Positions 20,127-42,505 of a stretch of DNA of 47,041 nt are shown piece by piece (the first letter of the stretch is position 1; each line of letters opens with the position of its first letter). Under the pieces are notes generated by a model. That model worked only from the letters and a program-made list of their open reading frames with translations. It was not told the DNA's origin and did no database searches. Where the stretch lies: positions 1 through 47,041 of the forward strand of contig JAKSYS010000506.1 of NCBI GenBank assembly GCA_022925895.1, given 5' to 3'. The position numbers and the translations under genes are program-made. The stretch is from Fragilaria crotonensis (lineage: Eukaryota > Bacillariophyta > Fragilariophyceae > Fragilariales > Fragilariaceae).

Positions 20127-23100
20127 TCAACTGTGATCATTCAGGTCGTACAGGATCAGGCCTACTAGATGGTCACGCTTCTGACCACCGGGTATGATCT
20201 TGGTACAAATGTCGGCGGGGTTATCATGTGTTGATATATGTCCCGTCAAGCACTCGCCCATTGCCACTGCCTCGCGCATGGCATGATAACAAACGGCGTT
20301 GGACTTTTTCTTTAGCGTCGACTCCGGTCGTTGAGTGTTGTGGATGACGGACATATTGTCACCATAGATGTATGACGGGCCGGACAATAAGACACCCATC
20401 ATGCGTAGTTTGTAGCGGATGCCACGAAGGGTTTCCATCCCTTGTTTCATGGCCACGAACTCGGCTCCAAAAACACTTGTCTCAATCGTGGACTGTTTCT
20501 TTGAAAACCAAGTAATCGGCGCGAGGTTCATGTATATTAGGAACCCGGTTCGAGATCGCCTCGTTCGCTGATCCCCAGCATGGTCCGAGTCAACAAAGAG
20601 GCGTAAATCCACCTCCTTGCCTCTCGGTTCGGGTGCATTAGGTGGTATGGCCTCAATTACGTTACCGTAGTACTGTTTCCAATCACACTCCTTAAAAACC
20701 GTCATATCAATGTCGGGATATGTTGGGTCGAACACAATTCTCGCATTGTGTTTCTTTTCAAGGTACCCGAACAAATGGAATACGGCCTCCAGATGTCCCT
20801 CACGCGGCATGGCGAGGTACGATGCGAGTTCCGAAACTTCAGTTATAATGTCAATACGGCTCAGTTCCACGCACCATCGTAGAACGCCAATTTGCGACTG
20901 ATAAAAAGTTGACTGCGATGCGTCGAGCATGGGTGTTACATCTAGTTCCGGCGAGTAGTTTAGCGGGAACGGTCCCTTTGCTTGTTTCAACCATTGCCGC
21001 GTCGGGTAATGCTTCTTGTGATATGCCTTTACATTGGTCACGGCAGCCTGTACATACTTGCTGGAACTCATCGCCCACGCACAGACGCCGTTCGGTAGCC
21101 TTGTCAGACGGAGTTTTGCCCCAAGATAGTACTCTGGGTCACGTATTGATCCCGGCTTAGTCTTGAAGAAGTGGTCGATCTCATTCAAAGCGCGGATGCT
21201 ATCATGATGGACCATAAGTATGTCATCAACATACAGTAGGCAATAGGCATAATACTTATACCCATCATCGCCACGGATTTCGGGCTTCATCCATACGTCA
21301 GGGTCAGCGATGCAGGACGACCAGCCCAGGTGGCGCATACAGTCTGCTAGGTGATTCCGAAAGGAGGCACCCGCAGACTTCAAACCATACAAAGCGCGTA
21401 CGATGATCGCCATTTTTTCAGCGTCCCGTCCAAACTCGGGTCCAAGCCTGCACCAAATCTTCTCACCAACAGGAGCCGTGAGGTATGCATTTTCAATATC
21501 GGCAGTTTTAACCTCGAGATCGTTAAGGGCGGCGAGTGTCAAGGCTATGCGTACAGACTCCCTAGACACGACGCTGGCATACGTCACGAACGCTGGCGGT
21601 GACTCAGTCATGTGTCCACCGGCAACCAGCCTTGCCTTTCGTTGGAAATCTTCCATCTTGATGTCAAACACAAGATGACACTTGATCTCTTGGAAAGTAG
21701 GTGGCGGGAGCGTTCCGTCTTCTAGCACCTCAAAAGCGACCTGTACCTTTGCCATTTCCTTGCGGATTGCGTCTTGCCAAAGAGTATTGCCGTTTTCACG
21801 GTCAATCCTGAGGCAATCTTCAAATCTTTTCGGCACCTCGATGCCGAATTTGTGTGTACGTTTGTGATAACGCGCATTTACGGCCGCGATGATTCGATTA
21901 CGCCGTCGCAGCGTATACGGTACCCACCATGCAAAGGCTGGTTCGCCGTCAATCCCATGTGCTATGGCGTAGTCGGCCACTTCCACCGGGTTTGATTCTT
22001 TTAAATCGGCGAGTCGCTCCCACGATGTCGTTCCATCTTTCCATTCCACGCAAAGCTTCCAGCCCTTTGTGGTTTTGCGTATATGGCGGTTGGAACCACG
22101 CTGGACGTACATGTCGGCGCGTTCAAGTGCAGAATCATCTTTCCGGTGATCAACGATTCCCTCCAGCAAGATGAATTGATTCCCCTCAGTATCGCACATG
22201 GCGTACATGCTCTGGGCAATCACATTTGCCGCAAGTTCCGCTGTCTGGCCGTCAGAGAACACAACGTCAAACGTCCGTGTATCAAGTATCGGATTTACGT
22301 TGGCCTTCCCAGTGAGTTTTCCGTCGGCCTTTCGTTTGCGACCTTGGACTTTTGCACTGAGCATCTTGTCCCCGATTGGAAGTGTAACCTCCGCCCCCAC
22401 ATATTGGTCGTATGTATCTACGTCGACTTCATCATCGGCGTCCGGGGCTGGGGACATTTCACTATCATCATCATCACCATACCGTTCGTATGTAGGTGTA
22501 TCGAGATCCTCAAGTTCAGGGTCGTTAATAAAATCCTCATACTTAAAACCTTCACCGAGGGCAGAGTTAATCTTTTCAGTGAAGAGTTGACGTTTCACCT
22601 TCATGGTTTCGTCTGCAATTTCGTCAGGTGTTAACGCTCGTACGGTAGACCTATATACGACCTGGCCGTTCTGCTTTAGGACCTTGCGAGTCATCGCAGG
22701 CCCAATATCTATAGCAGGACCGAGATCGCGTCCAAGCACCATTGTATCGTCCGGATACGTGACTGACGTGTCACGGAATAAAACCCACTCGTACCACTTG
22801 AATAGTGCGAATGGTGATATGTCGGCGGTCTCACCGCTGACGATAGTTTCTGGTACCTGGCCGTCAAGACGGTAGATATCATGCGCGGTGTGGGATCTGA
22901 TATACGCTTCACGCTCGAGGCAGTCATCCCAGAGACGCTTCGGCGCAGCAGATCTAACCATCTGTCGACCGACGCCTTTCTTTAATTCGCGGATTGCAGC
23001 TTCCGCGGCGTTTGACCACGGAGTGTGCGGTTCCGTTTGTCGTACTCGTACACCAACTTCTCGACATTTTCTCCGAAAAAGGCCCATAGTCTGTTCCCTC

Positions 23101-24209
23101 GCACCATCCATGATGATAGTGTTTGGGACGCCTTCCCGCTGGAAGAGTAATGACAAGCCTTCGTGTGCCAGGGACTTCTTCGACATTGGAAAAGCCCGGC
23201 ACCAGCCTTCCGGCGTAGCAAATATTTGAGCATACTTGTTATTTCGGCGTGATGCCGTGTTTGATATCAATGTGTCGGTGAAGCAGTCTACGGGTAGACG
23301 CCTGTATCGTAACTGCCTATCGTTCGTCCTGAAACGTCTAGACAAGGTTGGGTGGAGAACTGTCCGGACTCCTCGCTGCGTTGTCACGTCAACCGTTCGT
23401 TTGGCAGTTTGTAGGTCGATACCCCAATTACGTGCAAGAGTGTGTGCCTCAAATTGCTTACCGGGGACGGAGGGTCGGATCCCTGCCAGTGTGACGCTAA
23501 GTGTGCGGGAAAAAGAAAGCACATCGAGTGTCGGTGTCGTTTGTTGTAAAGACAATGTCGGACCGTCATAAACAACGGTTGAAAACATGTTGGAGACCGC
23601 ACAAAGGCGGCGCAACGGAGGCGGGGCGCCTATACGGTCCCCTGTCTGCGACATGTATTTCAACAATGTCTCCTCTTGCTGTGCGAAAGAAGTATCAAAA
23701 GGGTCGTACACTGGCTCATCACTCGTTAAGGAGAAGTGAGGTAGTGACTCGTACTCCACAAGGGTGGGCTTGCGGGTCGGGAACGAAGACGTGACGCCAT
23801 GTAAGGAGAGCGGGATCACATACGGTTGATCGGAACCGTCAAAAGGGATTGCGATCGAATGGGTCAAGTCGGTAAGTTGGTCAGTTAAGAAACGAGGGCA
23901 ATCGTTTACAATAACGTCATTCAACCGAACTTGCATAGTCGATAGCAAATTGTGACTGATGTTGGGGAGGTATATTGCTTGATGGACAAGCAGAATTACC
24001 GTCTCACCAGTCACAGGGTTGTCGTATGCTAGTGCACCTGTGACTGTCCGCATGTCCTTATCAACAGGACCGTCAGGGTTGTAACCCGTCACGTTGACTG
24101 GACGATCATAGTCGTGGACAATCAGCGCGTTGCTGCCTACGGCACACTGGTCGGCGTGTGAATCCAAATCAGTTCTACTTTCGTTAGAAATCGAGACTGA
24201 GATGTCCAT
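20127..24209 (-). CDS. pol: Copia pol polyprotein (protease, integrase, chromo-like, RT, RNase H)
   Basis: A 1360-residue uninterrupted frame from ATG 24209. The aspartic protease active site is LDSHAD near residue 15. The integrase core has D in VDCFTD (~307), D in IMDGARE (~366) and E in NAAEAAIRELK (~403). A segment at ~705-755 (GWKLCVEWKDGTTSWE) resembles a chromodomain, unusual for copia elements. The RT carries YVDDIL (~994). The RNase H region has DSDHAGD, AEFVAMK and YGDNMSV (~1208-1285) and ends NPADICTK. It should process the polyprotein, copy the RNA and insert the cDNA. Upstream it is preceded in the same frame by a short open stretch ending in TGA (24249-24251). No key residue appears lost, so it may be active. 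Confidence 0.93.
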   Translation of the reverse strand: MDISVSISNESRTDLDSHADQCAVGSNALIVHDYDRPVNVTGYNPDGPVDKDMRTVTGALAYDNPVTGETVILLVHQAIYLPNISHNLLSTMQVRLNDVIVNDCPRFLTDQLTDLTHSIAIPFDGSDQPYVIPLSLHGVTSSFPTRKPTLVEYESLPHFSLTSDEPVYDPFDTSFAQQEETLLKYMSQTGDRIGAPPPLRRLCAVSNMFSTVVYDGPTLSLQQTTPTLDVLSFSRTLSVTLAGIRPSVPGKQFEAHTLARNWGIDLQTAKRTVDVTTQRGVRTVLHPTLSRRFRTNDRQLRYRRLPVDCFTDTLISNTASRRNNKYAQIFATPEGWCRAFPMSKKSLAHEGLSLLFQREGVPNTIIMDGAREQTMGLFRRKCREVGVRVRQTEPHTPWSNAAEAAIRELKKGVGRQMVRSAAPKRLWDDCLEREAYIRSHTAHDIYRLDGQVPETIVSGETADISPFALFKWYEWVLFRDTSVTYPDDTMVLGRDLGPAIDIGPAMTRKVLKQNGQVVYRSTVRALTPDEIADETMKVKRQLFTEKINSALGEGFKYEDFINDPELEDLDTPTYERYGDDDDSEMSPAPDADDEVDVDTYDQYVGAEVTLPIGDKMLSAKVQGRKRKADGKLTGKANVNPILDTRTFDVVFSDGQTAELAANVIAQSMYAMCDTEGNQFILLEGIVDHRKDDSALERADMYVQRGSNRHIRKTTKGWKLCVEWKDGTTSWERLADLKESNPVEVADYAIAHGIDGEPAFAWWVPYTLRRRNRIIAAVNARYHKRTHKFGIEVPKRFEDCLRIDRENGNTLWQDAIRKEMAKVQVAFEVLEDGTLPPPTFQEIKCHLVFDIKMEDFQRKARLVAGGHMTESPPAFVTYASVVSRESVRIALTLAALNDLEVKTADIENAYLTAPVGEKIWCRLGPEFGRDAEKMAIIVRALYGLKSAGASFRNHLADCMRHLGWSSCIADPDVWMKPEIRGDDGYKYYAYCLLYVDDILMVHHDSIRALNEIDHFFKTKPGSIRDPEYYLGAKLRLTRLPNGVCAWAMSSSKYVQAAVTNVKAYHKKHYPTRQWLKQAKGPFPLNYSPELDVTPMLDASQSTFYQSQIGVLRWCVELSRIDIITEVSELASYLAMPREGHLEAVFHLFGYLEKKHNARIVFDPTYPDIDMTVFKECDWKQYYGNVIEAIPPNAPEPRGKEVDLRLFVDSDHAGDQRTRRSRTGFLIYMNLAPITWFSKKQSTIETSVFGAEFVAMKQGMETLRGIRYKLRMMGVLLSGPSYIYGDNMSVIHNTQRPESTLKKKSNAVCYHAMREAVAMGECLTGHISTHDNPADICTKIIPGGQKRDHLVGLILYDLNDHS

Positions 24210-24251
24210 TGAACCTAATGACCGGAAAACCGCAAGAGACGCCGCCAGTCA

Positions 24252-24458
24252 CTTGGAGTCATCGGTTGTGGACTTCTTCTGACGAGTGAGAGCGGAGTTG
24301 GTGCGATTTGCACCGACTTTTGCCTTTTTCGTTGGCGTTTCCTCCACGGAGGACACGGAATTGCTGGAGCCAGCCGTGTGATTATCGTCAACTCCAGTCT
24401 TGCTCATCTGCATCACAAGGTGGTTTTTGGTGACTTGAAAAAAATAAATTGAGTTCAA
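24252..24458 (-). CDS. Short lysine-rich frame before pol (possible linker exon)
   Basis: A frame in phase with pol, ending in TGA at 24249-24251, with basic segments (TPTKKAKVG) that could act as nuclear localisation signals. From MSKTGVDDN (24407) it is 52 codons. It may be the 3' exon of a gag-pol transcript, or a stand-alone leftover. The stop is followed by CTG, and the frame stays open from there to the pol ATG. Confidence 0.4.
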
Positions 24459-25653
24459 AATATATTGATAGTGAACGGGGACTATTCACCAAATAAAACT
24501 ATAATCAACATTTATGTTGATTATTCATCGTTTATTTTAGTATGACGTTTTAAAATAATTACATACATCACTTGTTTTGTTGAGTTAGATCACCGTGTGT
24601 ATTGTGTCTACAATGTTTAAATTGATAACTATGACAATGTGAAATTCATAACAAGCTTAAAACTCTGAGTACATACACACTAATTTTAAATGTATCACGT
24701 ACATCATATTTTTTGTTGATTTATATCACCATGTAGATTGAGTGGCTGACATGTAAATTGAATACTACAACAATTTCCATTCAAAACTAGCATTAAACTC
24801 TGAGTTCACACACACAACTCTGATCGAATCAAGTTTGAAACCAGATTGTTGCTCCACCTCTTCTCCCTCATCCGAAGTCCACAATACACCACCAATGACA
24901 GCAACATTCTTTCTGGCTCAACCCTTATGGTGCCAGAAGCAAGTCAATCCTTGTTGCCTCCATCTGCATTGTGATGACAGTTGCAGTGTCCTCATTCTCC
25001 GAACAAGGACACCACAATTCTCGAATGTTGGTGCTTTTGCCATTAGAGGATTGAGGTGTCGTTGTTTTCTTGATCAGTCTTGTCGTTGTTGCTGTTGTGT
25101 GTGTTACACATACATTTTTGTGATTTGAATCCAGTTCGAGCATCCGCATTTTGAATTCCTGTAGCGATGTACAGAAGTCCTACGAGCACAACCTCTGGTA
25201 ATTTTTGTTACAATTTCAAACCGGACAGAGCTGGAAGAGTAAATTTTTAAATTCCAGCCATTCACCGGACATTCTTATCCTTTTAAGTAAGAAATGACTT
25301 TTTATGGTGATATGAAAACACCAAGTCAACCTCTTGGAAAAACGGTTGCTACTGCAGAAACAAATTTATGTTTTTGTTGACTCCAGTAGAAATGAATTTA
25401 TGGAATCCACCGTGGGTTGACTCCCAAAGAAATAAACTTATTGGATCCACCGATTTTGTTTACTTCTCAAAAATTAAATTTGTAATAGTTTTATAAGTCA
25501 TCGATTCTATCACCAACTCAAAAGAACCATTACATTTAATACGTTAACATCTTAATATAAAAAATAAATACGTAGATATCACTTTTTAATGTTGAAAATG
25601 ACCATAATCATAACTATAAACAGTCATTATTGACTACAAGTAGATCAACTCAC
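24408..25653 (-). other. AT-rich spacer between gag and pol, candidate intron
   Basis: 1246 bases, much more AT-rich than gag or pol. It begins AAA|GTGAGT, a strong donor that overlaps the last gag codons, and ends GATGCAG|ATG, a phase-matched acceptor that would put gag in frame with the short pre-pol exon. It contains two diverged ~125-bp tandem units (about 24556-24680 and 24687-24814). Splicing is predicted, not shown. The pyrimidine tract next to this acceptor is weak; a stronger one precedes CAAG at ~24434, out of frame. Confidence 0.4.
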
Positions 25654-27303
25654 TTTATGCCATGTTGTGATGTGTTTCGCCAATTGGGAAACTTGGCGAT
25701 TCATGACCTTCCTGAGATTCTTGATCACCTCGGCCTTCGCCTTATTGCCGTCGGTCCTGACTTTGCTGTCCTTCGCGCCAGGTTTATGGCCCCGCTTGAG
25801 GCGCTTGGAAGCGAGCTCCTTCTTCTGATCAGCAGAGAGCGCGGCGTATTCGTCCTTGGTGTAATAGCGGTCCTCAATCGCACCGGCCTTGCGCTTTCCG
25901 CCACTTGTCTTTAGTTCCGAAATGTTGACAGTGTTATTGGGCCGGGTCTTGGTTGTTTGGCGTATATAATCTTGATACAAGGTTACACAGCCGTCAAAAT
26001 CAAGTCGCAGCCTTTCGTCTGACATGATTCGTGTCTTGACTGCGTCAAACTTATCGGTTTTGATGCCATCAAGTAGGTAGCGTACCTTGGATCGTGGATC
26101 TATCCCCGTGTAACCGTGTTCCACCAGTCCCTCCATAATCGAGTGCTGTTGCTTGTGGACATTGACGTACTTCTCGAAATCCCAACGGCGTTGCTCACCA
26201 TTGTAGACGGTTGACTTTAACTTGTCTTCGGCCATCGCGGCCATGTTGTCGACATTGTTAGGTCCAAGATAATGCAAGTAAAGACTGTTGTAAGCCATGC
26301 GACCATCACGAGTTTTCTGCGCCGGTTTGACATATGTCCAACAGGACAGGTCACGTGTAATTCGAGAGATGATTTCCCATACCTTTTCGCGGTTTATAAT
26401 GTAGGTGGGATCCAGAGTTCGCACCCCTGCAGTGTTGACGACATAATGAGGCACCCCTGCAGTGTTGACGACATAATGAGGCGCCCTTGCAATCATCTGA
26501 TCCTGAATAGTTGGATAAGTCAGGTCGGCATCGTCGGGCACTTCAATGTCTTTACGAGTGACGTAGGCAAGTGGGATTTTGCGTTCCCCCAGAACCGAAC
26601 GGAGGTATTCGTCGATCGCCTCCATCGTCTTTGGCCAATCTTTGGCGTTGATCGTTGGGAAATCCTCTGGCTTCTTGTATGAAGCCTCGAACTCTCGGAG
26701 TTCACGAAGTTCTCGGATCGCATCGAGGGTGACGTCGGGGGCATTAACAGTCTTGCTGATTCGAGCTTGATGACGCAAATAGAAGGCAAGCAGCTTTAGG
26801 TGGCCTTCAGCTCGTTGGTTGACATTCACGCCAGGGTTTGGTATGTTAACGGCACCTCCAACGGCGCCTCCCGGTGGGGCAGGAATCAGTCCCCCAGGCC
26901 GGCGGATTACCTTAATGAGGCTTTCGATCTCATCGTCGCTAAGCAGCCTTATTTCTTCAAGGGTGTCCAAACCCTGTTCTTCAACAAGGGCTTGAGCGGC
27001 AGCTTCAGTAAAACCAATGCGGGTCATGACCGCGCGCATTACCGCATTGTTCATGTTGACACCAGGGATAGCAGCGCCACGAAAGAGTGAGGACAACGCC
27101 GGTCGTTGACCCAGCAGAGGTACTGATTTCCCCAGTCCGTTGATCCGTTTTAGCCGTTCAACGGTGATCAAATTAAGCTTAGCGTCGGTTGTGCCAGGAA
27201 ATATTGAAATTCGGTATATATAAATATATGTCCTGGTGTCCAGCACTAAGCTGCACCTAACGGTTGTGGTGCGAGTCGAATTCGTCCACGATGGTATGGA
27301 CAT
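25645..27303 (-). CDS. gag: Copia gag protein
   Basis: A 552-residue intact frame. The first ATG is at 27303, but the N-terminal ~35 residues are encoded by a TATATATA-rich stretch (TYIYIYRIS), so the true start may be lower, for example MNNAVMRAV near 27054. That part (RIGFTEAAAQALVEEQGLD) looks like a small helical SAM-like domain. Then come a Pro/Gly hinge (PAPPGGAVGGAV), a helical capsid-like region and a basic C-terminus (KRLKRGHKPGAKDSK). No CCHC zinc knuckle is visible. A perfect 30-bp duplication (26421-26480) repeats ten residues. Position before pol in an LTR element and lack of enzyme motifs support gag. Confidence 0.8.
   Translation of the reverse strand: MSIPSWTNSTRTTTVRCSLVLDTRTYIYIYRISIFPGTTDAKLNLITVERLKRINGLGKSVPLLGQRPALSSLFRGAAIPGVNMNNAVMRAVMTRIGFTEAAAQALVEEQGLDTLEEIRLLSDDEIESLIKVIRRPGGLIPAPPGGAVGGAVNIPNPGVNVNQRAEGHLKLLAFYLRHQARISKTVNAPDVTLDAIRELRELREFEASYKKPEDFPTINAKDWPKTMEAIDEYLRSVLGERKIPLAYVTRKDIEVPDDADLTYPTIQDQMIARAPHYVVNTAGVPHYVVNTAGVRTLDPTYIINREKVWEIISRITRDLSCWTYVKPAQKTRDGRMAYNSLYLHYLGPNNVDNMAAMAEDKLKSTVYNGEQRRWDFEKYVNVHKQQHSIMEGLVEHGYTGIDPRSKVRYLLDGIKTDKFDAVKTRIMSDERLRLDFDGCVTLYQDYIRQTTKTRPNNTVNISELKTSGGKRKAGAIEDRYYTKDEYAALSADQKKELASKRLKRGHKPGAKDSKVRTDGNKAKAEVIKNLRKVMNRQVSQLAKHITTWHKVS
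26421..26480. repeat. 30-bp tandem duplication inside gag
   Basis: Two identical adjacent 30-base units, in frame, so gag gains the ten-residue repeat PHYVVNTAGV. The copies are identical, implying a recent change. Confidence 0.95.
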
Positions 27304-27569
27304 GGGTCAAGGCGCCCCTTGGGCCCCATCGAGGTTGCCAGATTCGGTTTGACATTCAGGTGTATCGGGATGCAGAGACCACCGGATACCCTCCCAGGCT
27401 ACATGCTCCATCAATCATGTTTGAGTTCACTGGAAGTGGGCAGTTCGAAGCATACCTAGGCATAATAATGGTCGAACAGCAGAACAACGTGACTTGAGAG
27501 TATGCGGATCCCTCATCCTGGGATGATCTACAAACCACGGAATAACGAAAAGGCATGGCGTCAATGCCC

Positions 27570-27596
27570 GTCCCAGAGCGATTGGGTCTGATAAAC
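27570..27596 (-). other. Copia primer-binding site
   Basis: On the sense strand directly after the 5' LTR the sequence is GTTTATCAGACCC. It partly matches the initiator tRNA-Met complement common in copia elements (TGGTATCAGAGC). The match is imperfect, so the primer identity is tentative. Confidence 0.5.
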
Positions 27597-27760
27597 TGAG
27601 TAAAAACAGTCGTACAGAACATGGGAAACATGCGATAGCGTAACATCGTAAAAGGTATTATAACAGGAGAGCAAGCACACAAGCCTACTTATCGCCGTGT
27701 ACCAGTACACCGTTGGACTGTTACAGTGCTACTGGTTCGCAATACGGATACATTAAATCA
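27597..27760 (-). repeat. Copia 5' LTR (164 bp)
   Basis: Same sequence as 19809-19972, followed on the right by TCCG (27761-27764). The sense strand contains TTATAATACC, a possible TATA element. Confidence 0.93.
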
Positions 27761-27966
27761 TCCGGACAACAAAACTTCGTACGAAGTTCCAAGGGCACAT
27801 AACCAGATAATTTCAGCTTCGATTTTCTTGACCCCGAGTGTCGTCCGGACAAGAAATTTTAGTTCGAAGTGTCCAAGTTCTGAACTCCCAAGTTTCCGAC
27901 GAAGGTCGAAGGTGAGTACAATATGTACAGCAGCTTTACATACAGAGTACCACGTACAGTACCTGG
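27761..27966. other. Short spacer between the copia element and transposon A
   Basis: No gene. It contains two related words starting GTCCGGACAA.AAA (about 27758 and 27848) and the palindrome CTTCGTACGAAG. It is the right flank of the copia insertion. Confidence 0.4.
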
Positions 27967-27968
27967 TA

Positions 27969-30900
27969 CAGCAGGTTTCATGCTAGACCGTCCTGGCGTA
28001 CCCCCACGCACAATTTATACTAAGTATACAAAGTCCCACAGTAAAATTCTGAAAGATTTTTTGCAATCGAACTCCCTCCTTGACGAGCGACGACGTATCA
28101 TAAAGAGCATCATTCCACATCTTCATCAGGACTTCTTCTTGCTTCATTTGCTTCCCTTAACTGAGAATTGACAAAGCCACGGTCAAAATCAAGGGCGCAT
28201 CGGTGTCCTTTAAAGGCTTTCATGAGCCTCTCAATCTCATTGTACAAAAGCTCTTGTTTTATATGAGTTGGAATGGCAGCGTGAGTACCAGCACCAGCTG
28301 AATTCGCTTCTTCAAGTTTCTGATCAAGATAGTGGTAAGTGCAAATATATGCACGCGCTCTTGCAGCGAACTTTTCTATTCTCACTCTGCTTAGAACATC
28401 CACAGGGCATGTGCATTCTCTTACAAGTTCTTTGAAGTTCTCTCGCCCTCGCTTTCGGGACACTGGAACTCGTCGGTAGAATGACTTCGCATGTGCCCAG
28501 CTGTATTCTATGCCTTCACCAGCAAGTTCAGCATGAAATTTTGGCGTCAGCTCAACACGAACTCCAAGTTGAGTGCCCAAATATTGGAGAGCAGTTTCCT
28601 CTGTCTTAAAATCCACACACTCCGCCATAAGATGCCGAAGGGAGTATTGTAAGTCGACATGTCCTGATGTTGGATCCTTGCGTCCGTCCAATGTATACCT
28701 CCCTAATGACCCTTCCAAAATCAACCCCCGCTCCCAAAGGACTTGCAGAAGGCCTTTAGGCTTTCCTTGCCACCCTGCGATGACTCCTTGCTTCTCTTCG
28801 AACACGTCGATGCCATGTCGCCTTGCAAATGTTTGTAACTCTTTCCTTGTGTAGCCCCGTTGTTCTGGCATCTCAACTCCAGCTTCGGACAGAGCTTTGA
28901 TTAAGAGCTTCTTTGACCGTTCAACTTGCCTGCTCGTCCCTGTTGCTGTATCATGTCTCTGAGCTTCTCTCTGATCATGGGAGAGGTACCATGGACCAGA
29001 ATCGTGTGGTTGGAAAACCATGGACTGAGTGTCGCCAACGTTTAGTTTTGGTGAGTGCGAGCCAAGGTAACCATCTGCTTGTAAAATCATTGTGTCTCTC
29101 ATCATTGGCTGTGCCCCTCCGAAGGTTCGGGGTCATGACATATGAAATGCACTCAGAGCTCCGCTTCGCTTGCGTGCGTGACCCTGACTATGATCAAACA
29201 AGAAGACAAAATCGTATTCAGAATATAGAACCTGCAAACAATCCACGACATCTTCGAATTGCAAGCTCATGTGATAACTGTTCCAATAACCCTCGTTGTT
29301 GGCTCCGATGTAGAGATACTTGACAAACGGCGATTCAGTTAACAGCGGTTTTTGGGTCGTCTTTAAAATCTCCATGGCAGCGTGAGTGTCAAGGTAAGTC
29401 TTGTGTGTTCCTCGCCTTTCATCATTGACCTTCGCTAACTCTTCCGCCGTCATCTCCCGTCCGAAGCCAAACTCTCTCGCAACGAAGGCAGAAAGCATAT
29501 CATAGCCGTCGCCATCGGACTTCGGGAGCAACGGGCGTTGCCCTTTTTGGTCCTGTCCATGTCTTGCTTCCAAGCAAGTACTGAGCGAAGACGCTCTCGT
29601 CTTGGCCAACTATCATCAAAGGCCGTGCCTGCAAGGAAACGCGAATGCTTTTTGTTGGTGTTATCTTGTCGGTGTTGTCGTGATCAGCAGTCCTCTCGTT
29701 CTTTCTTGTTGCTTGATTCCAGTAGTCAATATGGAATTCAATCCTGTCCTGGTTCCCGATAATATCATGATACAAATAACCGAATGTGAGATTAAGATTC
29801 ATTGCCTTTGCTTCATCAACCGATACTTGCACCCAGCGTTTACAGTAGGGCTCAAATTCTGTTAGATAACGTTTGCAGAATATTCGCCGATTGGCTACCA
29901 CATCATCACGTTCATGGCCGTCAACGTAAAAGCTCTTTTTCCTTGAATCGTAGTTAAAACCGAGACATCGCATCCACCGCCAAGTTGTCGTCAAACCTAC
30001 AGACTCCAGTCTGTGAGCATTTAAGAAGGAACGGATTGGTGTGTTGGCATCCTCATCTGGCAGTTCAGCACCCGCAGCATTGCCTGTAGTAGTGTCAGTA
30101 GTACTCGCTGGTGGTGTCACCACACCATTTTCTTCGCTCCGCCAAGTTCTTGCTAGCCTTGGAATCACTGATGTGACAAGGAAATCGTGAACTCGCTCTA
30201 TAGTTAGTGTTGCTAAGTTCTTGATGCCGAAGGAGACAATCTGGTCCTTGGCATCGGGAAACAGTTCGAGCAACCGCGGGAGTGGACGTTTTCCACATTG
30301 AACATACGGATTGGGGTGCGGAAAACCCTCAAATTGCCTGAACACCTTGTTCCAATTTGCAACGGTCTTGAAGAACGTTGCCTGACGGAGTCCAAGGCTA
30401 TTCAGAACCTTGCATGCCTGCTTACAACAATCATGCCATGTTATCTGATTCATGTTGGTCAACGCTATCTGGTACGCACAACAAAGGAAGGTCGCCCGTT
30501 GTCGAATCTCAAAAATCTCGACCTTGGTGCAGAAGTTGTTCTCGTCCCTGCCGATTAATATGTTTCTCCAGCCGTCCTCACAGTCATGCACAGATTGTAG
30601 CAGTCCTATCCGTCGCTTAACTGCCTCATGTGCAGTTTCGTTGCTGCATTGCCTCGCCTCGCCGCCATCGTTGTCGGTACTGACAGCTGGTGGTGGTGTC
30701 AAAGCTCTCGTTATCCTTGTTGGACGAAAGAGTCGACGTGCTTCAGGGCTATCAGGCCAGTATGACATTGGTACGACAGAATCCTCCTCCCTATGCTCTA
30801 ATCTTGGGCGTTTCTGTGGTGACGGCTGTTCGTTAATTGCTTCTGCACACACATCATCCAAATTGGTAGATTCAGTCGTGTCGACACGAGTTGCGAGAGT

Positions 30901-31550
30901 GATTGCTGGTCTCGCTCTTGTTGAAGGAATGATAAGGGCATTTGATGCCGTTTCCAGCACTCTTTCCTTCCAAGCCTTATTCAAGGGATACGGATAGCTT
31001 ACCTGCCTTGTTTCATTCGTCAAATAATAAAAGTGTTGATGATTGTAGTTGATTCTGAAGACTCCGCTCTGATTTGACCCGTCAAATCTTGACATGACGG
31101 ATCCGAATGTAGCGGCCTTGGACATTGCCGTATTAAACTTTCGAACGTCAATGACAATTGCGGGATCAATGTGTCCCGTTTTTTTAAGTGCTTCAACCCA
31201 TGTTGACGCAGGGAGCCAGCAGTTTGACAATCGAGGTCCGTACACAGGATCGGCGCGAATCAACATCACAGCATTCACAAAAATAGTGTAAATGCCTTGG
31301 TCAGCCATCTTGACTATCAACCCAACTTCGTCAGATCGACTCTAAAGTGTATTGAGAAGGCAATTGTCAGGGTTGGGTTGATAGATCAGAGTGCAATGTT
31401 GTGTTGAGCGGCATGAAATCTCATTGTGGAATGCCTTGCTTCCAACACGAGAATATTCTCATTTGATTACGTCATAACTAAAATTCTATTGGCTACACGT
31501 ATGTTTTGTACTGGGTGCTGCGCCAGGTTTCTTGGTGATGAAACCTGCTG
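27969..31550 (-). mobile_element. TA-target DNA transposon A, 3.58 kb
   Basis: Terminal inverted repeats CAGCAGGTTTCA at both ends, flanked by TA at 27967-27968 and 31551-31552. Subterminal similarity continues inside (A.CCTGGCG). It carries one degenerate transposase gene on the minus strand. TA duplication plus a DDE transposase places it in the broad IS630/Tc1/mariner group, but its length and its ~1000-residue transposase are far above the usual ~1.3-2.4 kb and ~340 residues. Confidence 0.85.
28110..31308 (-). pseudogene. Large DDE transposase of element A (two lesions)
   Basis: Start ATG at 31308 (MADQGIYTIF). The N-terminal ~500 residues contain a conserved unknown region and the block FYVDGHERDDVV. 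The DDE core follows: first Asp in VGQDESVF, second in FLFDHSQGHARK, third acidic in LTPKFHAELAGEGIEYSW, then RARAYICTYHYLD and GHRCALDFD. Between the second and third catalytic residues is a SAP-like stretch (TRKELQTFARRHGIDVF). There are two breaks: an extra A in the run at ~29551-29555 and an in-frame TGA at ~29130. The block order resembles a large DDE transposase family known from basidiomycete fungi (PKFHCELN.IE..W). It is the least damaged of the three copies here. Confidence 0.8.
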
Positions 31551-31564
31551 TACAGCAGGTTTCA
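31539..31564. repeat. Head-to-head junction of transposons A and B
   Basis: A perfect 26-base palindrome: the inverted repeat TGAAACCTGCTG of A, a single TA, and the inverted repeat CAGCAGGTTTCA of B. The two elements share one target dinucleotide. Confidence 0.9.
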
Positions 31565-34500
31565 TTTCCGATAAACCTGGCGCAGGAAACAGTATAAACT
31601 CTACGCGACTAGATTTTTGTTCTGCATGTGACGTCATATTTACAAGTAGTTGTCGTGTTAAAAGCGTGAGTTCCACCATGAGATTGCATGCCGCCGTTTG
31701 CCTTGTTCCCACTCCTTACAAAGTGCCTCACCCTGGCAATCCTCTCCAGAATACCCTCTAGAATTCAACAGAGTGATTGAGGCACTTTGCAATGGCCGAC
31801 AGTGGTCGAATAAACGCAATAATAGCAAGGGCTGTGACCGTTCTTTTGGATGACAGCCGATTTGGACCGAGATTGTCAAACTGTTGGCTCCCGGCCTCAA
31901 CGTGGGCAGAAGCTTTGGCCAAATCAGGGCACATTGATGCCTCCCTTGTTAGTACTGATGCTCGAAAATTTAACGTTGCCATGTCGAAGTCCAATTTATT
32001 TGGTGAATCGATGACACGTTTCGATGGCACCAATCAAACAGGAGTGTTCCGAGTGAAATATGCTCGGCAATATTTCTATTACTTTACTGAGAAAAATCGG
32101 CAAATTGAGTATCCATTTCCATTGAATAACACATGGAAGGATAGGGTCCTGCAAGCTGCGGCTAACGTGCTCGTAATTCCGTCAACTCGGGCAAGACCTG
32201 CAATATCCTCAACTGCTATTCTTCACGACAACGACAGTACTATCGAAGGCGATGAGTCACCAAACAAACGTCCAAGAATAGAAGAACGCACAACAACAAT
32301 GTCATATTGGCCTGATAGCCCAGAAGCCCGCCAAGTTTTCAGACCAAGAACTATGAGGACAATGAGGACTGCTGTTAGCAGTACTGGTCGTGATGAGGAT
32401 GGCAATACGATGACACTTTCTGGAGAAAGTGCGAAGGAAGCACTGGAGCGAAGGATCAAACTGCTACTGACGGTTCATGAGAAAGAAGATAGCTGGCGAA
32501 CTATAGTCATGGGAAGAGATGAAGAGAACTTTTGTACAAAGGCTGAGATATTTGAGATCCGACAGCGTGCTTTATTTCTCTGCTGTGCCTACCAATTGGC
32601 ACTCTCAAAAATGAACGATTGGACGTGGCATGACTGTTGCAGAGAGGCCTGCAATCGTTTAAATAGTCTAGGCCTTGTGCAGGCAACATTTTTCAAGACA
32701 ATCGCGAACTGGAACAAGGTTTTTAGGAAGTTCGAGTGCTTCCCACATCCCAACCCGTATGTACAATGTGGAAAGCGACCCTTGCCGCGACTCCTCGAAG
32801 TATTTCCAACTGCGAAGGACCAAATAATTGCATATGGAATCAAGAATCTAGCGACACTAACAATAGAAAGCGTCCACGATTTCATCCTTTCTTCTGTCAT
32901 TCCAAGGCTAACAGTACTGTGGGAGAAGGAGATGATGGTGCCAGCGGACGATTGCGACAATACATCCGAGCCAAGAAGTCGAGCGATTCATTCATTTCTT
33001 AAAACTCATCGGCTTGAATCAATGAGTTTGACTACCACTTGGCGATGGATGCGTTTGCTAGGATTCCAATACGACACGAGGAGGAAAAGTTTTTACGTTG
33101 ATGGTCACGAACGTGACGATGTTGTCGCGAGTCGTTCTACGTTTTGCAAGCGTTACCTAACAGAGTATGAACCATACTGTAATCGGTGGATTCGACTACC
33201 TTTGAGAGAGGCAACAACAATCAAGAATCTTAACGTTGCATTTGGCTATTCCTATTTTGACATTATTAGCAACGAGGAATGGATCGAGTTCCACGTCGAC
33301 TATTGGAAGAGTCGTATTATGGAGGAAAACGACCAAACAACAACCGCCAGCCATCAATGATATCCAGATTGAAGAAAAGAAAGCAACCACCAGCATTCGT
33401 GTATCAAGCGCAACGAGGCCGATCATGATCGTGGGGCAGGATGAGAGCGTCTTCGCGCAGTACCTTCTTGGAAGTAAGACTTGGGTAGGACCGAAAGGCC
33501 AACGCCCTCTCCTACCCAAATCGGAGGGCGATGGCTTTATGCTATCAGCCTTTGTGTCGAGAGAATTTGGATTCGGAAGAGACCTGTCGGCAGATGAGTT
33601 AGTAAAAATAAATGCAGCAAGGCGAGGAGGTGACAGGACTTACATTGATACTCAAGCTGCACTAGAAATTTTGAAGTCGACAAAGAAGCCCGTCTTGACG
33701 GAATCACCATTCGTAAAATACTTGTACATCGGAGCCAACAACGAGGGATATTGGAATAGCTACCATATGAGTCTACAGTTTGAGGACGTTGTCGATTGCC
33801 TGCAAGTCTTGTATCCTGAGTTCGATTTCGTGTTCCTGTTTGATCACAGTCAGGGACACGCTCGCAAAGACCTGGGGCACTTAATGCCTTTCAAATGTCG
33901 AAGACCTATGGTGGCGCGCAGGCAGTAATGAGAGACACGACAATAATGAGTAAAGACGGATACCTTGGGGAACACGTACCTCGATTGAATGTCGGTGACA
34001 CTCAGTCGTTCATTTTCCGCGCAGATGATTGTGGTCCATTTTATCTGTCACCAGAACAGAGAAAGAGCAACGACACGATCGACCAACTGGGAAATTCAAA
34101 CGTGTGGAGCGGTCAAAGAAGATGCTCATGAACGCCTTAAGTGATGCTGGAGTATCATTTCAGCAGCAACGGAGTTACACAAAGAAGGAGCTTCAAGATT
34201 TTGCAGGATCCGTGGCATTGATCTTTTCGAAGAAGAACAAATAATTGCGGGATGGCAGGGGCAACCGAAAGGCCTTCTGCAAGTCCTAAGGGAAAGAGGT
34301 CTTATTCCTGAACACTCGTTAGAAAAATATACACTTGATGGTCGAAAAGATCCAATCACAGGCGTTGTCGACTTACATTATTCGCTGAGAAATCTACTTG
34401 CCGAGTGCACCGATTTTAAGGAGGAAGAAACAGCACTACAATACTTGGGGACTCAACTTGGAGTTACAGTTCAGCTCACTCCAAAGTTTCACGCCGAGCT

Positions 34501-35066
34501 AGCGGGTGAGGGGATAGAGTACAGTTGGGCGCATGCAAAGGCATATTATCGTCGCGTTCCAGTCTCAAGAAAGCGAGGACGTGAAAACTTCAAAGATCTG
34601 GTAAAAGAATGCACCTCTCCTGCTAAGGTGTTAACAAAAGCCAGAATTGAGAAGTTTGCATCAAGAGCTCGCGCCTATATTTGCACTTACCATCATCTTG
34701 AGCAGGTGCAATCAGCACGAGCTGCCGCAGTTGCTGGTGTTGATCCAATCGCAGTTTTGCCAAAGAAGTGCTCCGTACACTGACATTGAGAGGGTCAGGA
34801 AGGCCTTCAAGTGTCACAGGTGTGCCCTTGACTTCGATAGTGGTTTCGTGAATTCGGAGCTCAAGGAAGAAGCAACAACAAGAGAGGAGGTGAATCAAGA
34901 CGATGATGATGAAGTGAATTCGGAGTAAGAATGAGTTTTATGATGAGCAGCGTGGAGGCAATCTGATTTCGGAAGGATCTTTCAGAATTTTACTTTAGGA
35001 AATTGTATGATGTGTAGAAATTGTACTAATCTGTACGCGAGGACGGTCAAGGGTGAAACCTGCTGT
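31553..35066 (+). mobile_element. TA-target DNA transposon B, 3.51 kb
   Basis: Same 12-base ends as A (CAGCAGGTTTCA at the left, its complement at 35055-35066), with TA at 31551-31552 and 35067-35068. Subterminal words are shared with A, for example ATCTTTCAGAATTTTAC before the 3' end. Its transposase gene is clearly related to that of A, so the two are members of one family that diverged before insertion. Confidence 0.85.
31792..34928 (+). pseudogene. Large DDE transposase of element B (many frameshifts)
   Basis: Starts MADSGRINAIIARAV at ATG 31792. The N-terminal region is intact to 33360, including FYVDGHERDDVV. A frameshift before ~33360 leads into the core: IVGQDESVF, then FLFDHSQGHARK. 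More shifts at ~33880, ~34070-34110, ~34205 and ~34760 break the rest, which still shows LTPKFHAELAGEGIEYSW and KCHRCALDFD. All three catalytic acidic positions remain visible but no single frame joins them. Lesions differ from those of A, so there is no shared recoding site. Dead as a source of transposase. Confidence 0.8.
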
Positions 35067-35068
35067 AC

Positions 35069-35182
35069 AGTTATGATTCAGCTGACCTTGGTTCTCTTGT
35101 GTACTGTAGTACTAGTACTAGTACCAGGTATTCCATAACTCTGGTTTGTGCGTTCGTCTACTAACGTTCTGGAGTACAAGTA
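35069..35182. other. Spacer between transposons B and D
   Basis: 114 bases without features apart from a GTACTAGTACTAGTACC stretch near 35107-35126. Confidence 0.4.
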
Positions 35183-36106
35183 CTCGCATAAACATAGTAT
35201 CTGGACGACCAAAATTACGAGAGTAGCTGGACGGATTTTGAAAACCACTCATTTCACCACATTCATGCACGAAGATTGTGCATTTCAGTAACTAGAGAAT
35301 TGTACTATACCCTCAAACATATGGGGTTACTGTAGCTTGTTTGTGGTGAGGTGGGACAGTTCAAAAGATGCGGCGAGTTAAAATTTTGGATTTTTTTGGG
35401 GAATGTAAAGTTTTGCTTCGTAATTTAATTGCACATTTTTGTATCATGTCAACAGATGCAAAGAACGACAGTAGTGCTTCTTTGACACTGTTAGTACTTG
35501 TTAGTATGCCGGTATTCTAATGTCCGGTCAAATTTGCAGTCACATAACTTACTTTTGCATTTCTGACGGCCACTGCAAAATCAACATGGTCAAAGTCAAT
35601 TTTGAACATTGAAGTGCGTCAACGTCGCAATATTTTAATCCTACGGCACTTTCCATATGTTTCATACAAAAAATTGCATGCTACTAATTTAATCGCATAC
35701 AAAGCAAGAGTTTCATTACGAACTTCGAAATTTTACTGCTGTCCATCTCAATGCCAATCCGAATGTATTTATTGCTGAATACATAAATTTCAAGATGGCA
35801 CAATTGTAGAATAGGCCCTTGTGATATATTTGTAACGTGAAAAAAAACTTGTTCCAACTTGACATTGTCAAAAGGGACTCAATTTGCCACACTAGTGACT
35901 GAAAGTCCAGGTACTATGTTAAAAAAAATCTCGAAAAATAAAATTAGACCACTCATAACTCCATCAATAGATATTGTATCACGGCTTTGAGTAGCTGAAA
36001 AGAAAGCCTTTCATGAGATCTACAATTTGGTGCCGTTAGAAGTTGTGTATGAAGTGTCCCTACACAACGAATAATTTTACTTGTCCAGGTACTATGTTTA
36101 TGCGAG
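35183..36106. mobile_element. Non-coding TIR element D (MITE-like), 0.92 kb
   Basis: Imperfect inverted repeats of about 37 bases at both ends, outermost CTCGCATAAACATAGTA, flanked by TA at 35181-35182 and 36107-36108. The interior is AT-rich with no coding frame. A third copy of the subterminal word CCAGGTACTATGTT lies inside at ~35909. Its ends differ from those of A, B and C, so its helper transposase is elsewhere. Confidence 0.65.
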
Positions 36107-36354
36107 TACTCCAGACTCCAGAGTACTCGGAGTACTCGGAGTGTACTCGTATGGTGTATGGTATTTTTTGCGGGTTATAGACGGGATTAGAGATTATGGC
36201 TGGGTGCAAGTTTTGTGAATTTAAGGTAGCCACCGTAGACACAGTATGCTATTTTTTTAATTCATGCCGACAGCCATTCTGTTTATCTCGTCGATCACCA
36301 CACTTCATTGTTGATGACCTTCACCAACACATATCTCACGTTCCGTTGCGTCTC

Positions 36355-36423
36355 CCGCGTGCACCGATAGCTCTATATCTTCGTAAAGAACACCATGAGC
36401 AGTTGCAGCATCGGTGCACGCGG
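36355..36423. repeat. Perfect 14-bp inverted repeat in the 5' part of element C
   Basis: CCGCGTGCACCGAT at 36355-36368 and its exact complement at 36410-36423, with a 41-base loop containing the first ATG. It could form a hairpin around the start, or be a transposase site. Confidence 0.6.
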
Positions 36424-39400
36424 CAAACATAATGCATCAACTTTTATCTTGACTTGCATGCGCAAGGTTTTCAGCGAGCACACTCTCCACAGGAGATGGT
36501 TACCAGCTGAACAGCTTCGAATGTATATGCACATGAAATATGAAATTGGCGAGGATATCAAGTTTACATTGAGTAAAATGATGAGAGCAATCGACAAGGT
36601 GCTTCCGCTGACGAGCTCGGTTCCAAATGTCGTCGAAATTCCAGGGGATCACAGCTTCAAGTTTTCCGACATACCTTCCAAAATCGGACAAGGAGATACT
36701 TTTTTGGGTGACGATAGATGTCGGAGAGGTTCCATCTTTCCCTTCGCAGCTAAATGCAACAGCATGGGAACAAGACTGTGTCTTGACTAGACTTTTAGCC
36801 GGTGGTCGCGAACAACCGTTGTGTATGACAAACTTGTGCGAGCCAGAACCAAAGCGACAGAAAGGCATGATGGAAGTGGAGTCTGACCCCGAATTGAGTG
36901 ACTCGAATACACTTCATCCCAGAGCGGCGTTTGCATTCTCAATAGAGAATCATGATTGGTGGGACTCGGGCGATGCACGTCGGCTCTTTGCACCAGTATC
37001 ACCGACCTCCACTTTACGCTACGATACTGATTGCCGTGTCAAGGACATTGTTCTGGAAAGGATTGAGCTACTGGAGTCGGTAAATCGAGCAGCAAGAAAC
37101 TGGAACCTCATCATCGACAAAAGTACGGGTAGTTCAAAAAGCCACTACTACTCGGAAGCTGATGTATTCTCCTTAAGGTATAGGAGCATGTACTTGGCTA
37201 TCGCATTGAAGCAATTTGTACTCAATGTCACTGGTGACATAAGCACCCAGTGGACATGGAAACGGTGCCTACAGTATGCAATTGAAGAAATGAATGATGT
37301 TGGGGTTGAGTTTTATTCTAGTTTTGCAACCCTGTCCCGCTGGCACAGGAAGCTTGCTCGTAACAGATACTATTTCTATAAAGCTCCAGAAGCAAAGAAT
37401 GTGTGTCCCCGTTTCTTTATTGACAATCCCGATGCGATGGAAGCATTCAAGAAGCACGGGGTTGAAAACATCAAGGACCTCAGGGTTGAGATGATGCTCG
37501 AGTATGTCCACTCGCAGTTGATTCCAAAGCTGATTGTGAGGAGGGACTGCGCTTTATTTGACGACAATGGTGATGATGTACAAGAAATTGCAGGACGACA
37601 AGAAGAAATAACTCCTACCACTAAAGACGAATTCTTACAATCCTACGGCCTCTCAACTTTAAGTATTACAACAATGGCAAGGTGGATGCATGCTTGCGGC
37701 TTCAGGTACAAGAAGCGCGAAGCATTACTTCGTGGACGGTCACGAGAGGCCAGAAACCATTGCGTACAGGCCAGTTTTACTAGAAAGTACCTTGATGACG
37801 AGGTACGAGCTCATCGTTGGCTCCAAATGACGTTGACCGAATCAAAGAGTTAGAATCAAATGGAAGCATTGCTCCTAATTGTGGTTACAACTATGTTGTC
37901 GATGGTGTTGACATGGTAGAATATCACATCGACACATCATACGCATTCGAAGAGCGACTTGGATTGCTCCCATTTGGAGGCAACCTCAGTGTTCGCAAGC
38001 CTACGGATTCTAAGACGGTAGTCTTTATCGGACAAGATGAAGCTATATTTAAACAATTTCTATTTCTTACTAAGATGTGGGTCGGCCCTAATGGTGGCGT
38101 CCTTTACTTCCAAAGGATGAAGGAAGTGGTACAATGATATCGGCATTCATATGCCGGGAGTATGGCCTCATCAGAGTGGTGCCACCAGAGACACTTGCAG
38201 AAGTAAATCGTCGACGAATTGGGCAAACATATGCTGATCCTGAGGCAGCGACTGAGATCCTTGGTAGTCCTGACAAGCGACCACTCATCAGACAAGTCTC
38301 CATTTCTCGTCCTTTTTGAGTACGGCGAGAATCGTGAAGGCTACTGGGCCTACAACAACATGGTCCTCCAGTTCGAGGATGCCGTCGACGTGCTCCAAGT
38401 CATGCACCCATCATACGATTTCGTCTTTTGTTCGACCATAGTGCCGGTCATGCGAAACAAAGACCGGATGGTCTAAATCAGTACAGGATGAATCGGTCCT
38501 TTGGAGGCAAGGCAGGTTCAATGCGTGACACTATCATTGCACAGGAGGAGGGTTACCTGGGAGCTTTTCCTCGAAGTTTACAGCCCGGAGATATCCAGTC
38601 TCTTGTATACAGCCAGTCCGACTCTGGTCCCTTCTGGATGTCAAGCACCCAAAAGAAAGCCGACACGACAAACAACTTGGAATTATGACAGATGTGCAGC
38701 TGAAGATACCGGAAATGATTGAGCAACTGAACGTAACTGCTGGTGTCTCTAATGCTTTGGGAAAAAGTATGAGACAGCTCAAAGACCTCTGTTTCCGACA
38801 CGGAATCCCGACGTTCAAGGCTGTGCTGAATTCTATCGAACGTAATCGATCGGGTTGGAGATCGAACTTAGAGGAAAGAATATCACTACGAAGGAAAGAA
38901 TAAAAGAGAGTTAGTTGAGTTATGTCAAAATAACAACATTGCGGTAACAAAGACAGTTGAAAAAATAAAGAAGGATGGGAGGGAAAAGCAAAAGGCTTAT
39001 TGCAAGTTCTCTGGGAACGAGGATTGATTGACGGTGCCAATGTAAAGCAGTACTCACTTACCGGGAGAAAAAATGACTTGGGGACGGTTGATGACAGCAC
39101 CAGCTTACGACAGATCATGGGCATGTGTCACGATTTCATGAATGAGGAGGGAATGTTGCAGCATATCGCAAAGACTCTCGGTGTCAAAGTTCTCTTGACA
39201 CCAAAATGTCATGCCGAACTTGCAGGCGTGGAGTATGTCTGGGCCTGCTCCAAAGGTGCATACAGGAACTTAAGCCTTCAAGCAAAGAAAGGTAAAGACA
39301 ATTTCAAAGCTAGCATTCGGTATTGCCTGTCGGAAGAGGTGATAACAAAAGTGAGAATCAGAAGATTTGCGAGACGAGCACGACAATATTTAATGGCATA

Positions 39401-39548
39401 TCATGCAATCGATACGTGCCAAGTTGATGATGAAACTCAACACGATTGCAAGACTCATGGTCCAGTGGCACTGACAAAGCTGATCGGTCAGTTTAAGACT
39501 CACCGTTGTGCCTTTGACTTTGACTTCAAGTATATCATGGAGGCATGA
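36395..39548 (+). pseudogene. Large DDE transposase of element C (many frameshifts)
   Basis: It begins in the frame of ATG 36395 or 36458 and crosses to the 36627 frame (QLNATAWEQDCV) near 36700. The block YFVDGHERPETI is visible only in an alternative frame at ~37725-37775. The DDE residues are IGQDEAIF (~38030), FDHSAGHAK (~38430) and CHAELAGVEYVW (~39210). The tail keeps RRARQYLMAYH and THRCAFDFD. At least seven frame changes make it inactive. Two SAP-like segments lie between the second and third catalytic residues (MRQLKDLCFRHGI and KRELVELCQNNNI), where A has one clear copy. Confidence 0.75.
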
Positions 39549-39757
39549 TGAGCAACAGCTGTGTTGATCTGTAATGATTTATGACATGCGAATGTAAAAT
39601 GTAAATTTCACTCATCGAAAGATATATATATTAAAATGCTTCATGTTTGTTTAGAACTATACTCCATGAGTACGCTTCAGTTAGTTGGGAACTAAATTTA
39701 TTTTGTACGAGCGCTACGGTGGCTACCCAAAATACTATTTATCTGCACCCAGCCATA

Positions 39758-40695
39758 GGCGGACACAAGAACCACGAACAAGCTGCTCAACAGAACTTTA
39801 CGCCCTCCAGAATTCTCGATTCCAGACGCTGTACGATTGTTCTGTATATATCCTACTATATTATAAATTAATTGTGTGCGTGTGTGCGTGTGTGCGTGTG
39901 TGCGTCTGTTACGGAGTATGACCACTCTGGGGTACTGGATCAAATGAATACTGTCTCATACTCGGAGTATATGTCATACATGCATACTGGAGTACTCCGT
40001 AAGCGATGTCGGTAAGATTTGCATATACGTAGTTGCGTCAGTGCGTGCGTCTGTTACGGAGTATGACCACTCTGGGGTACTGCACTACTTGCGTATAGTA
40101 CTGAACTGTACAAACAGTACACACAACCGTGCACAAACCATACCGTACACGTATTCCAAAAGTCCGACCAATTGGGAGGTACCCACTAGTTTTGTATATA
40201 TATATGTATAAAAAAGCTCACTGTAGGTCTAGTAAGTACTCTTTAATCTGTAAAATTAGTACAGTACCTGCTACAATTCAGCAGTATTGAATTGCGAGTA
40301 GAACGTAGGTCTCTATGATAGTATTGGGGAATAGACAAGGTCTGGGAATGAAAAGGAGCAAGCCTGCTTCTGGATGCTCGGACGCTGGGACTACACTGCA
40401 AATATGATGGCAAGAGTCGGAGAATGAAGGTAGGATGGTGCTGCGCTAGAGCCTACTGGCTACTGCTACGAAGAATGCACTTACATACTATTTGTTTTGT
40501 ATTTTGTACACGACTTACCACGCTCGTGTTGACGAGAAATCTTTCATGAAACCATCAGGCAACACGAATCAGGAATCAGGACTCTCGGCAGTCGGAACCA
40601 ATCTCGATCATGTGCTGTATTCGCGCAAAAAGGTTTCATTCATTTGATTCATTGTTATTGACCATAAATTGACCTTCTGGCAATAAAGTCAAGCC
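39758..40695. other. Repeat-rich spacer between element C and the ankyrin genes
   Basis: No gene. A TGTGCG microsatellite lies at ~39872-39905. A 37-bp direct repeat starting TGCGTCTGTTACGGAGTATG occurs at 39901-39937 and 40046-40082. Many short palindromes based on GAGTACTC and GTACT follow. Confidence 0.5.
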
Positions 40696-41111
40696 ATGAG
40701 ATTTTTCTTGTCGAAAACGAAGAAATCGTTGAGTGAGAATGATCAGAGTTTGATTAGAAATGCCTCTTATGGTGATCTCGAGGAGGTTCGTGACCTGTTA
40801 CGTGCAGGAGCCAATGTGAATGCTCAACGTGATGATGGTACAACGGCACTTTACATTGCGAGTCAAGTAGGCAGTGCAAATGTCGTCCGCGAGTTGCTCC
40901 AAAACGACAAGGTGGATGTGAACCTCCAACGTTCAGATGGTTCGACAGCCCTGTACATTGCGAGTAAAAGAACCATGAGGAGGTTGTCCGCTTGTTGCTC
41001 CAAAACAACAAGGTGGATGCGAATCTCAAATGTACCGATGGTTCAACAGCCCATCGAATGGCTTGTTCCAAGGGCCACATTGCTATTGCAAGTCTTTTGA
41101 GGTGCATTTAG
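40696..41111 (+). pseudogene. Short ankyrin-repeat protein, frameshifted
   Basis: ATG 40696 opens MRFFLSKTKKSLSEN and then ankyrin repeats (LEEVRDLLRAGANVNAQ, TTALYIASQVGSANVV, KVDVNLQRSDGSTALYIAS). Near 40965-40975 a two-base insertion (AAAAGAACC) shifts the frame. The next frame continues as EEVVRLLLQNNKVDANLK, GSTAHRMACSKGHIA and ends at TAG 41109-41111. Both frames end here within the same short span, so the original product was a four-repeat protein of about 138 residues. Confidence 0.65.
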
Positions 41112-41176
41112 AGTACCGTGGGCTCATCCAGCACTCTTTCAGTGATTATGCCATGATACCCGACGCATTTTGTTTG

Positions 41177-42250: not shown

Positions 42251-42505
42251 TCGCCAACGAGTAGGTCTTAAACATCACTGTGAATGACGGGGAACAATAT
42301 CTATTTGACCTGTCTTGACCTTGGCGATGGATGGGCTACTGTACCTCTGTATCTGCTCTATGTGACTCCCACAATTCTTCTAATTCAGCAGTTACGATTT
42401 AGCCACACTGGTAATCAAGTAATGGCAAACAGTTGTGCTGATCATTTCTGTACGGCAGAATGGTTCCAAACCGTGAGTAGGACTTATAGGAGTATGCCGC
42501 TATTA

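Follow-up and report, generated by a model that had tools for sequence, protein, structure and literature searches.

CAG at the inverted ends is a feature of Tc1 elements. Tc1/mariner transposases carry 34 to 41 residues between the second catalytic aspartate and the glutamate (D2-E spacing, DD34-41; PMC8533490). Sailor (DD82E), within the IS630-Tc1-mariner (ITm) group, has a D2-E spacing of 78-111, transposases of 323-676 residues and target duplications that are mostly TATA (PMC8533490). The bacterial element IS30 moves by copy-out-paste-in, and one of its natural hot spots is nearly palindromic (PMC9333248). Bari1 of Drosophila melanogaster is Tc1-like and forms tandem arrays, right end to left end, with junctions that lack two terminal bases (PMC4877112), while MarorTcMar-18 of Marasmius oreades is a mariner-type element of 3,972 bp (PMC9674265). 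Here, we describe two large transposons, A and B, that abut head to head at a single TA in a 47,041-nucleotide contig of Fragilaria crotonensis (JAKSYS010000506.1). The whole stretch is called the window and is contig C455 of the 62.1-Mb, 881-contig genome; other contigs are denoted in the same manner.

The arrangement quite probably arose through two separate insertions by members of a TA-duplicating family with a large DDE transposase, the second of which, more likely that of B, would have entered a TA already duplicated by the first. This interpretation is drawn because other copies have matching ends, empty sites contain a single TA, copies resembling A and copies resembling B lie apart from each other, and the family prefers GTAC targets. 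The same observations support the proposal of the sequence-only reading, made from the letters of this DNA alone, that one member inserted at the flanking TA of the other. The locus is organized as follows:

27967..27968, outer TA left of A, a single TA at the empty site in C526
27969..31550, element A, 3582 bp, gene on the minus strand, both ends present, termini CAGCAGGTTTCA
27969..27998, plus strand, 3' terminal inverted repeat of A, bipartite, with CAGCAGGTTTCAT and then CCTGGCG
31521..31550, minus strand, 5' terminal inverted repeat of A, bipartite
31538..31565, perfect 28-bp palindrome where the 5' ends of A and B meet
31551..31552, TA common to A and B, the sole bases between the two elements
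31553..35065, element B, 3513 bp, gene on the plus strand, both ends present, termini CAGCAGGTTTCA
35066..35067, outer TA right of B

All four element termini carry an exact CAGCAGGTTTCA, in agreement with the earlier claim of identical 12-base ends, and these are the four exact matches in the window (27969-27980 and 31553-31564 on the plus strand, 31539-31550 and 35054-35065 on the minus strand). When up to two mismatches are allowed, the window has seven matches compared with a mean of 5.8 in shuffles. Relaxed matches are thus no more common than expected, and the evidence resides in the exact, paired placement. The termini of both elements are bipartite, with 12-13 identical bases followed at a fixed distance by a CCTGGCG-like block. 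Because the A gene lies on the minus strand and the B gene on the plus strand, the 5' ends face the common TA in a head-to-head arrangement, and because both elements begin with CAGCAGGTTTCAT, their junction is palindromic. The sequence-only reading described this palindrome as perfect, which it is, and as 26 bases long, slightly short of the actual length. It was correct about the single TA spacer, which is matched by a TA at both outer edges, and about an element size of approximately 3.5 kb. The two elements are 66.5% identical over aligned bases; by this measure they are different subfamilies and not duplicates of one element.

Other copies in the genome terminate at the same bases as A and B. 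The closest full-length relative of A is found in C389 (99.3% identity by substitutions, same ends), and further full-length relatives with the same ends are present in C68, C647, and C766 at about 87.5%. Five other full-length copies of B (C254, C158, C556, C453, and C596) are 99.4-99.9% identical by substitutions. These five copies and the one close A copy stand alone, each flanked by TA. The 14-mer TACAGCAGGTTTCA has 44 exact genomic matches; at no more than one mismatch it has 91 and its reversed control 47. At 18 insertion sites the two ends were read as a pair, and TA is found outside both ends at each. This TA belonged to the search word, and the test for duplication therefore lies in the empty sites. 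The sites in C137 and C346 share flanks and were treated as alleles, reducing 18 sites to 17. We note that two elements of 440-460 bp (L076, C218:378205-378645, and L077, C363:12610-13070) have ends TACAGCTGGTTTCA, which are one base off the A/B ends, and these are possible non-autonomous relatives. The element in C363 starts 421 bp from a 1077-codon frame.

To find empty sites, the joined flanks of 13 insertions were each searched in the genome as a single query. Five of them match unoccupied places across the junction. One is the element in C526, whose empty counterpart in C227 is identical over 202 bp (100%), and the unoccupied site therefore has one TA. Empty counterparts located in repeats were obtained for the insertions in C453 (C18, C77, C209, and C111, 97-99%), C268 (C299, C586, C677, C107, and others), and C647 (C437 and C312 at 92%, and others). 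The insertion in C431 has counterparts at 82% in C526 and on the minus strand of the window itself (35179-35328), where a copy of the repeat hit by the C431 element reads as one TA with a gap-free junction. The A-B joined flank gives a partial empty-site match, and the remaining seven have no junction-spanning place among the matches listed. These one-TA sites are what the sequence-only reading had proposed to look for. It had also named copies with limits outside CAGCAGGTTTCA/TA as the finding that would count against it, and the junction-spanning matches leave its boundaries standing. Insertion at TA with duplication of the TA, by which IS630-Tc1-mariner elements are recognized, is found in this family.

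The A-B site also has an empty counterpart. C526 contains this site with a single TA (GTACCTGG-TA-CAGTTATG), and C83 has a paralogue of the empty region that extends across the same stretch of 116 bp at 84%. To the right, the compared parts of C526 and the window occur in the same order: 111 bp at the right flank of B are identical (100%), a piece of a neighboring element, C, agrees at 98%, and window positions 39760-47041 agree at 99% in two blocks.

GTAC (G-TA-C) is the target at 8 of the 17 sites, compared with 9.9% of all 2085 window TAs (p 1e-4), and at 7/16 when the A-B site is left out (p 5e-4). The broader motif RTAY (purine-TA-pyrimidine) accounts for 14/17 sites versus 35% of window TAs (p 9e-5), or 13/16 without the A-B site. 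Across 42 ends, the base preceding the TA is a purine in 37 and G in 23, and TATA is present at five. The first base of every element is C and the last is G; a copy entering GTAC would thus leave GTAC at both edges, so that a resident copy would offer preferred targets. According to the model of two insertions, the first element would enter a TA and duplicate it, and the second, more likely B, would enter the duplicated TA to give TA-A-TA-B-TA. If A was first, its right edge would have read CTG-TA-CAG, a palindromic target. B has one private substitution relative to its five sister copies; derived substitutions number 5 in A and 17 in the C389 copy, with four not resolved. By these counts, both elements are young and B may be the more recent, though the counts are a weak guide to this order.

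The transposase genes of both elements are distributed over several pieces:

29500..31320, minus strand, A transposase, N-terminal part to the first catalytic D (GQDES), followed by a frame break
29133..29609, minus strand, A transposase, part with the second D (FDHSQGH)
28110..29105, minus strand, A transposase, D2-E region and E motif, weak SAP-like match (E 0.035)
31777..33360, plus strand, B transposase, N-terminal part
33236..33928, plus strand, B transposase, catalytic D1 and D2, family-like at about 33356-33868
34145..34780, plus strand, B transposase, E-motif part (HAELAGEGIEY)

In two relatives the gene is one frame without stops, of 1072 codons in one and 1077 in the other, and the predicted family enzyme is a very large DDE transposase of about 1,050-1,070 residues. 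The transposase of about 1000 residues ascribed to each element by the earlier reading therefore suits the family, but in A and B themselves the coding sequence is broken up among several frames. Between copies 2-8 substitutions apart, 8-18 gap events are counted, and in the B set 37 of 56 single-row indel columns have a same-base run within 12 columns, versus 31% of gap-free columns. The split frames have the look of indel errors from assembly, of decay, or of the two combined. The catalytic residues of three relatives whose open frames are long are spaced 132-133 (D1-D2) and 225-227 residues (D2-E) apart, giving D-132-D-226-E.

Family proteins match no Pfam model above cut-off, the three proteins tried against NCBIfam give no match above cut-off, and PDB sequence searches return none above threshold. 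Pfam DDE_3 (PF13358) has no match in the genome; the control was positive in 3 of 14 genomes. The sole recurrent weak Pfam match is SAP_new25 (in 8/18 members, lowest E 0.0021), which falls between D2 and E where it could be placed. As to the helix-turn-helix DNA-binding region that ITm elements carry ahead of the DDE domain, Pfam HTH_33 appears in element C only, at an E of 0.014, which is below cut-off. Profile comparison by hhalign against a five-sequence IS630/Tc1 set aligns the D1 and E regions in register with the catalytic D1 and E motifs of IS630/Tc1. The D1 region scores 25.1 (E 0.0038, equalled by 2/200 column shuffles) and the E region 23.9 (E 0.0036, equalled by 0/200), each at a probability of about 9%. 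AlphaFold models of the window transposase pieces are too poor to add evidence. Given the weak in-register matches and the TA duplication, the enzyme most likely represents a divergent ITm (IS630/Tc1) branch, although this is not proven.

Element C, a third member of the broad family, lies 1.1 kb from B:

36197..39755, plus strand, element C, 3559 bp, with TA at 36195-36196 and 39756-39757 and ends TGGCTGGGTGCA and GGTAGCCACCGTAG

Its bipartite ends differ from those of A and B, and its gene extends over several frames. The last coding piece, of 195 residues, is matched at 98% in C12 and C526. A genome search with this piece scored at least 150 places of 530 candidates, A and B included, and at least 16 of these places have open frames above 1,000 codons. 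Some elements are counted as two pieces in this figure of at least 150 family matches in 62 Mb. Because near-identical copies exist, the family was probably active recently. Annotation that relies on Pfam, NCBIfam, or PDB models would likely miss this large family, which has no match above threshold in the sequence searches made with them.

The sequence-only reading offered a second possibility, that the pair moves as a composite. A and B would then have inserted as one 7.1-kb block through the outer ends, which are intact together with the outer pair of TAs, and the one-TA empty site in C526 is equally expected under one-step insertion. However, other A-B pairs that had moved together were looked for and none was found: there is no second A-B junction in the genome, where the inner 26-mer of the palindrome is unique at up to three mismatches. 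With the solitary, TA-flanked B copies and A copy also arguing against it, the composite is unsupported and very unlikely. A different proposal is that the transposase itself favors end-to-end insertion, much as IS30 targets its own inverted repeats. This is compatible with two separate insertions and would add a mechanism to them. Element edges would recreate the preferred GTAC, and uniform insertion predicts much less than a single pair of abutting elements (0.0008 with 22 elements and 0.04 with 150). Because this expectation is so low, the preference for certain sites may be insufficient by itself to account for the event, which would be either rare or promoted by edges that are favored beyond their sequence. 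A second TA-centered palindrome, at C346:36768-36793, was found at three mismatches in the search for a C-type end junction, and about ten bases of its arms agree with the ends of C. On the other hand, the A/B-type junction occurs once in the genome, the C346 candidate lacks the second block of C's ends and its element limits are not demonstrated, and CTG-TA-CAG is present on both sides at none of the 17 sites. We consider such edge targeting possible but doubtful. The C346 locus (L080, C346:36711-36850) contains a 22-bp TA-centered palindrome, TACCCAGCCATATGGCTGGGTA, from ends like those of C, and is a possible second abutting pair. The broader idea that the family inserts at GTAC, renews GTAC at both edges, and so builds head-to-head and tandem arrays as a regular by-product in a eukaryote, in an IS30-like manner, seems unlikely. 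The pair shows how one TA-target element can settle precisely at the edge of another and leave both undamaged, and a preferred target recreated by each insertion provides a testable explanation.

Besides the low expected number of pairs, several observations weigh against two insertions by an ITm-type family. On the enzyme side, these are the blank Pfam, NCBIfam, and PDB searches and the low hhalign probabilities, which fall to 2.5% for the whole 18-row profile. At the locus, similarity between C526 and the window breaks at 27958-27959, 8 bp before the TA that borders A on the left. The empty site in C526 is therefore clean only on the right and over 8 bp on the left. Farther left, window 24.3-27.96 kb has no match in C526 among the matches listed, and 14.0-19.8 kb has only a 77% match. 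The break may stem from a rearrangement of older date or from a switch of the contig between B copies. Moreover, C254, C556, C596, C766, and C843 terminate within 10 bp of an element edge, indicating that the assembler struggled at these repeats, and a mis-join inside one of six near-identical B copies could have linked B to its right flank. The arrangement might accordingly be an assembly artefact in part, with a real A-B junction and a right flank that belongs to another B insertion. The divergence next to the TA, the 99.3-99.9% identity of the six B copies by substitutions, and the five contigs that stop at element edges all fit this explanation. Yet the 8 bp left of A (GTACCTGG) agree with the C526 empty site, and GTACCTGGTA is uncommon, with one occurrence in both window strands and 21 in 294 kb of partly redundant loci. 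Furthermore, the matches listed for the 116-bp query of the C526 site are C526 and C83 alone, and none among them is a contig that connects this left flank with B. We judge the partial artefact improbable. Birth of the pair by rearrangement, for instance by inversion or recombination between the ends of nearby copies, could also draw on the parting of window and C526 within 8 bp of A's TA. It is at odds with the low A/B identity and with the presence of both ends on both elements, and transposition is what yields exact ends with an exact TA between them; this origin is most improbable. Two separate insertions remain the interpretation that we prefer.

The window has additional features. A Copia-type retrotransposon on the minus strand (19809-27760) has identical 164-bp long terminal repeats (19809-19972 and 27597-27760) with TCCG on both outer sides, and its right repeat ends 208 bp left of A. 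Open frames at 40687-42250 resemble ankyrin repeats by eye, and self-similar repeats are found at about 7.4-13.4 kb and 17.7-19.7 kb.

Like IS30, which inserts beside its own inverted repeats to give abutted ends with a 2-bp spacer (PMC9333248), the A-B pair has its ends brought together around two bases. Edge insertion is deduced here from one junction, and the likeness is one of working, with no kinship claimed. The end-to-end state is also common to Bari1 (PMC4877112), but here two different elements meet head to head with intact ends. For MarorTcMar-18, the comparison with A and B concerns size alone, which is similar (PMC9674265). The family resembles ITm and Tc1/mariner elements in the TA target and its duplication, in inverted ends that start with CAG, and in the order of its D, D, and E motifs. 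It differs from ITm elements in its length of about 1,070 codons and its weak SAP-like match, with no DDE_3 match in the genome. The D1-D2 and D2-E spacings of 132-133 and 225-227 contrast with the 77 and 35 of the IS630 protein from Deinococcus (D53, D131, E167). The D2-E spacing of the three relatives likewise departs from the DD34-41 of Tc1/mariner proper. Sailor, which is also reported from stramenopiles (PMC8533490), shares a lengthened D2-E spacer, but the family has a spacer of about 226, an enzyme of about 1,070 residues, and TA duplication, with TATA at 5/42 ends. The family enzyme falls outside both Tc1/mariner and Sailor as these are described in PMC8533490.

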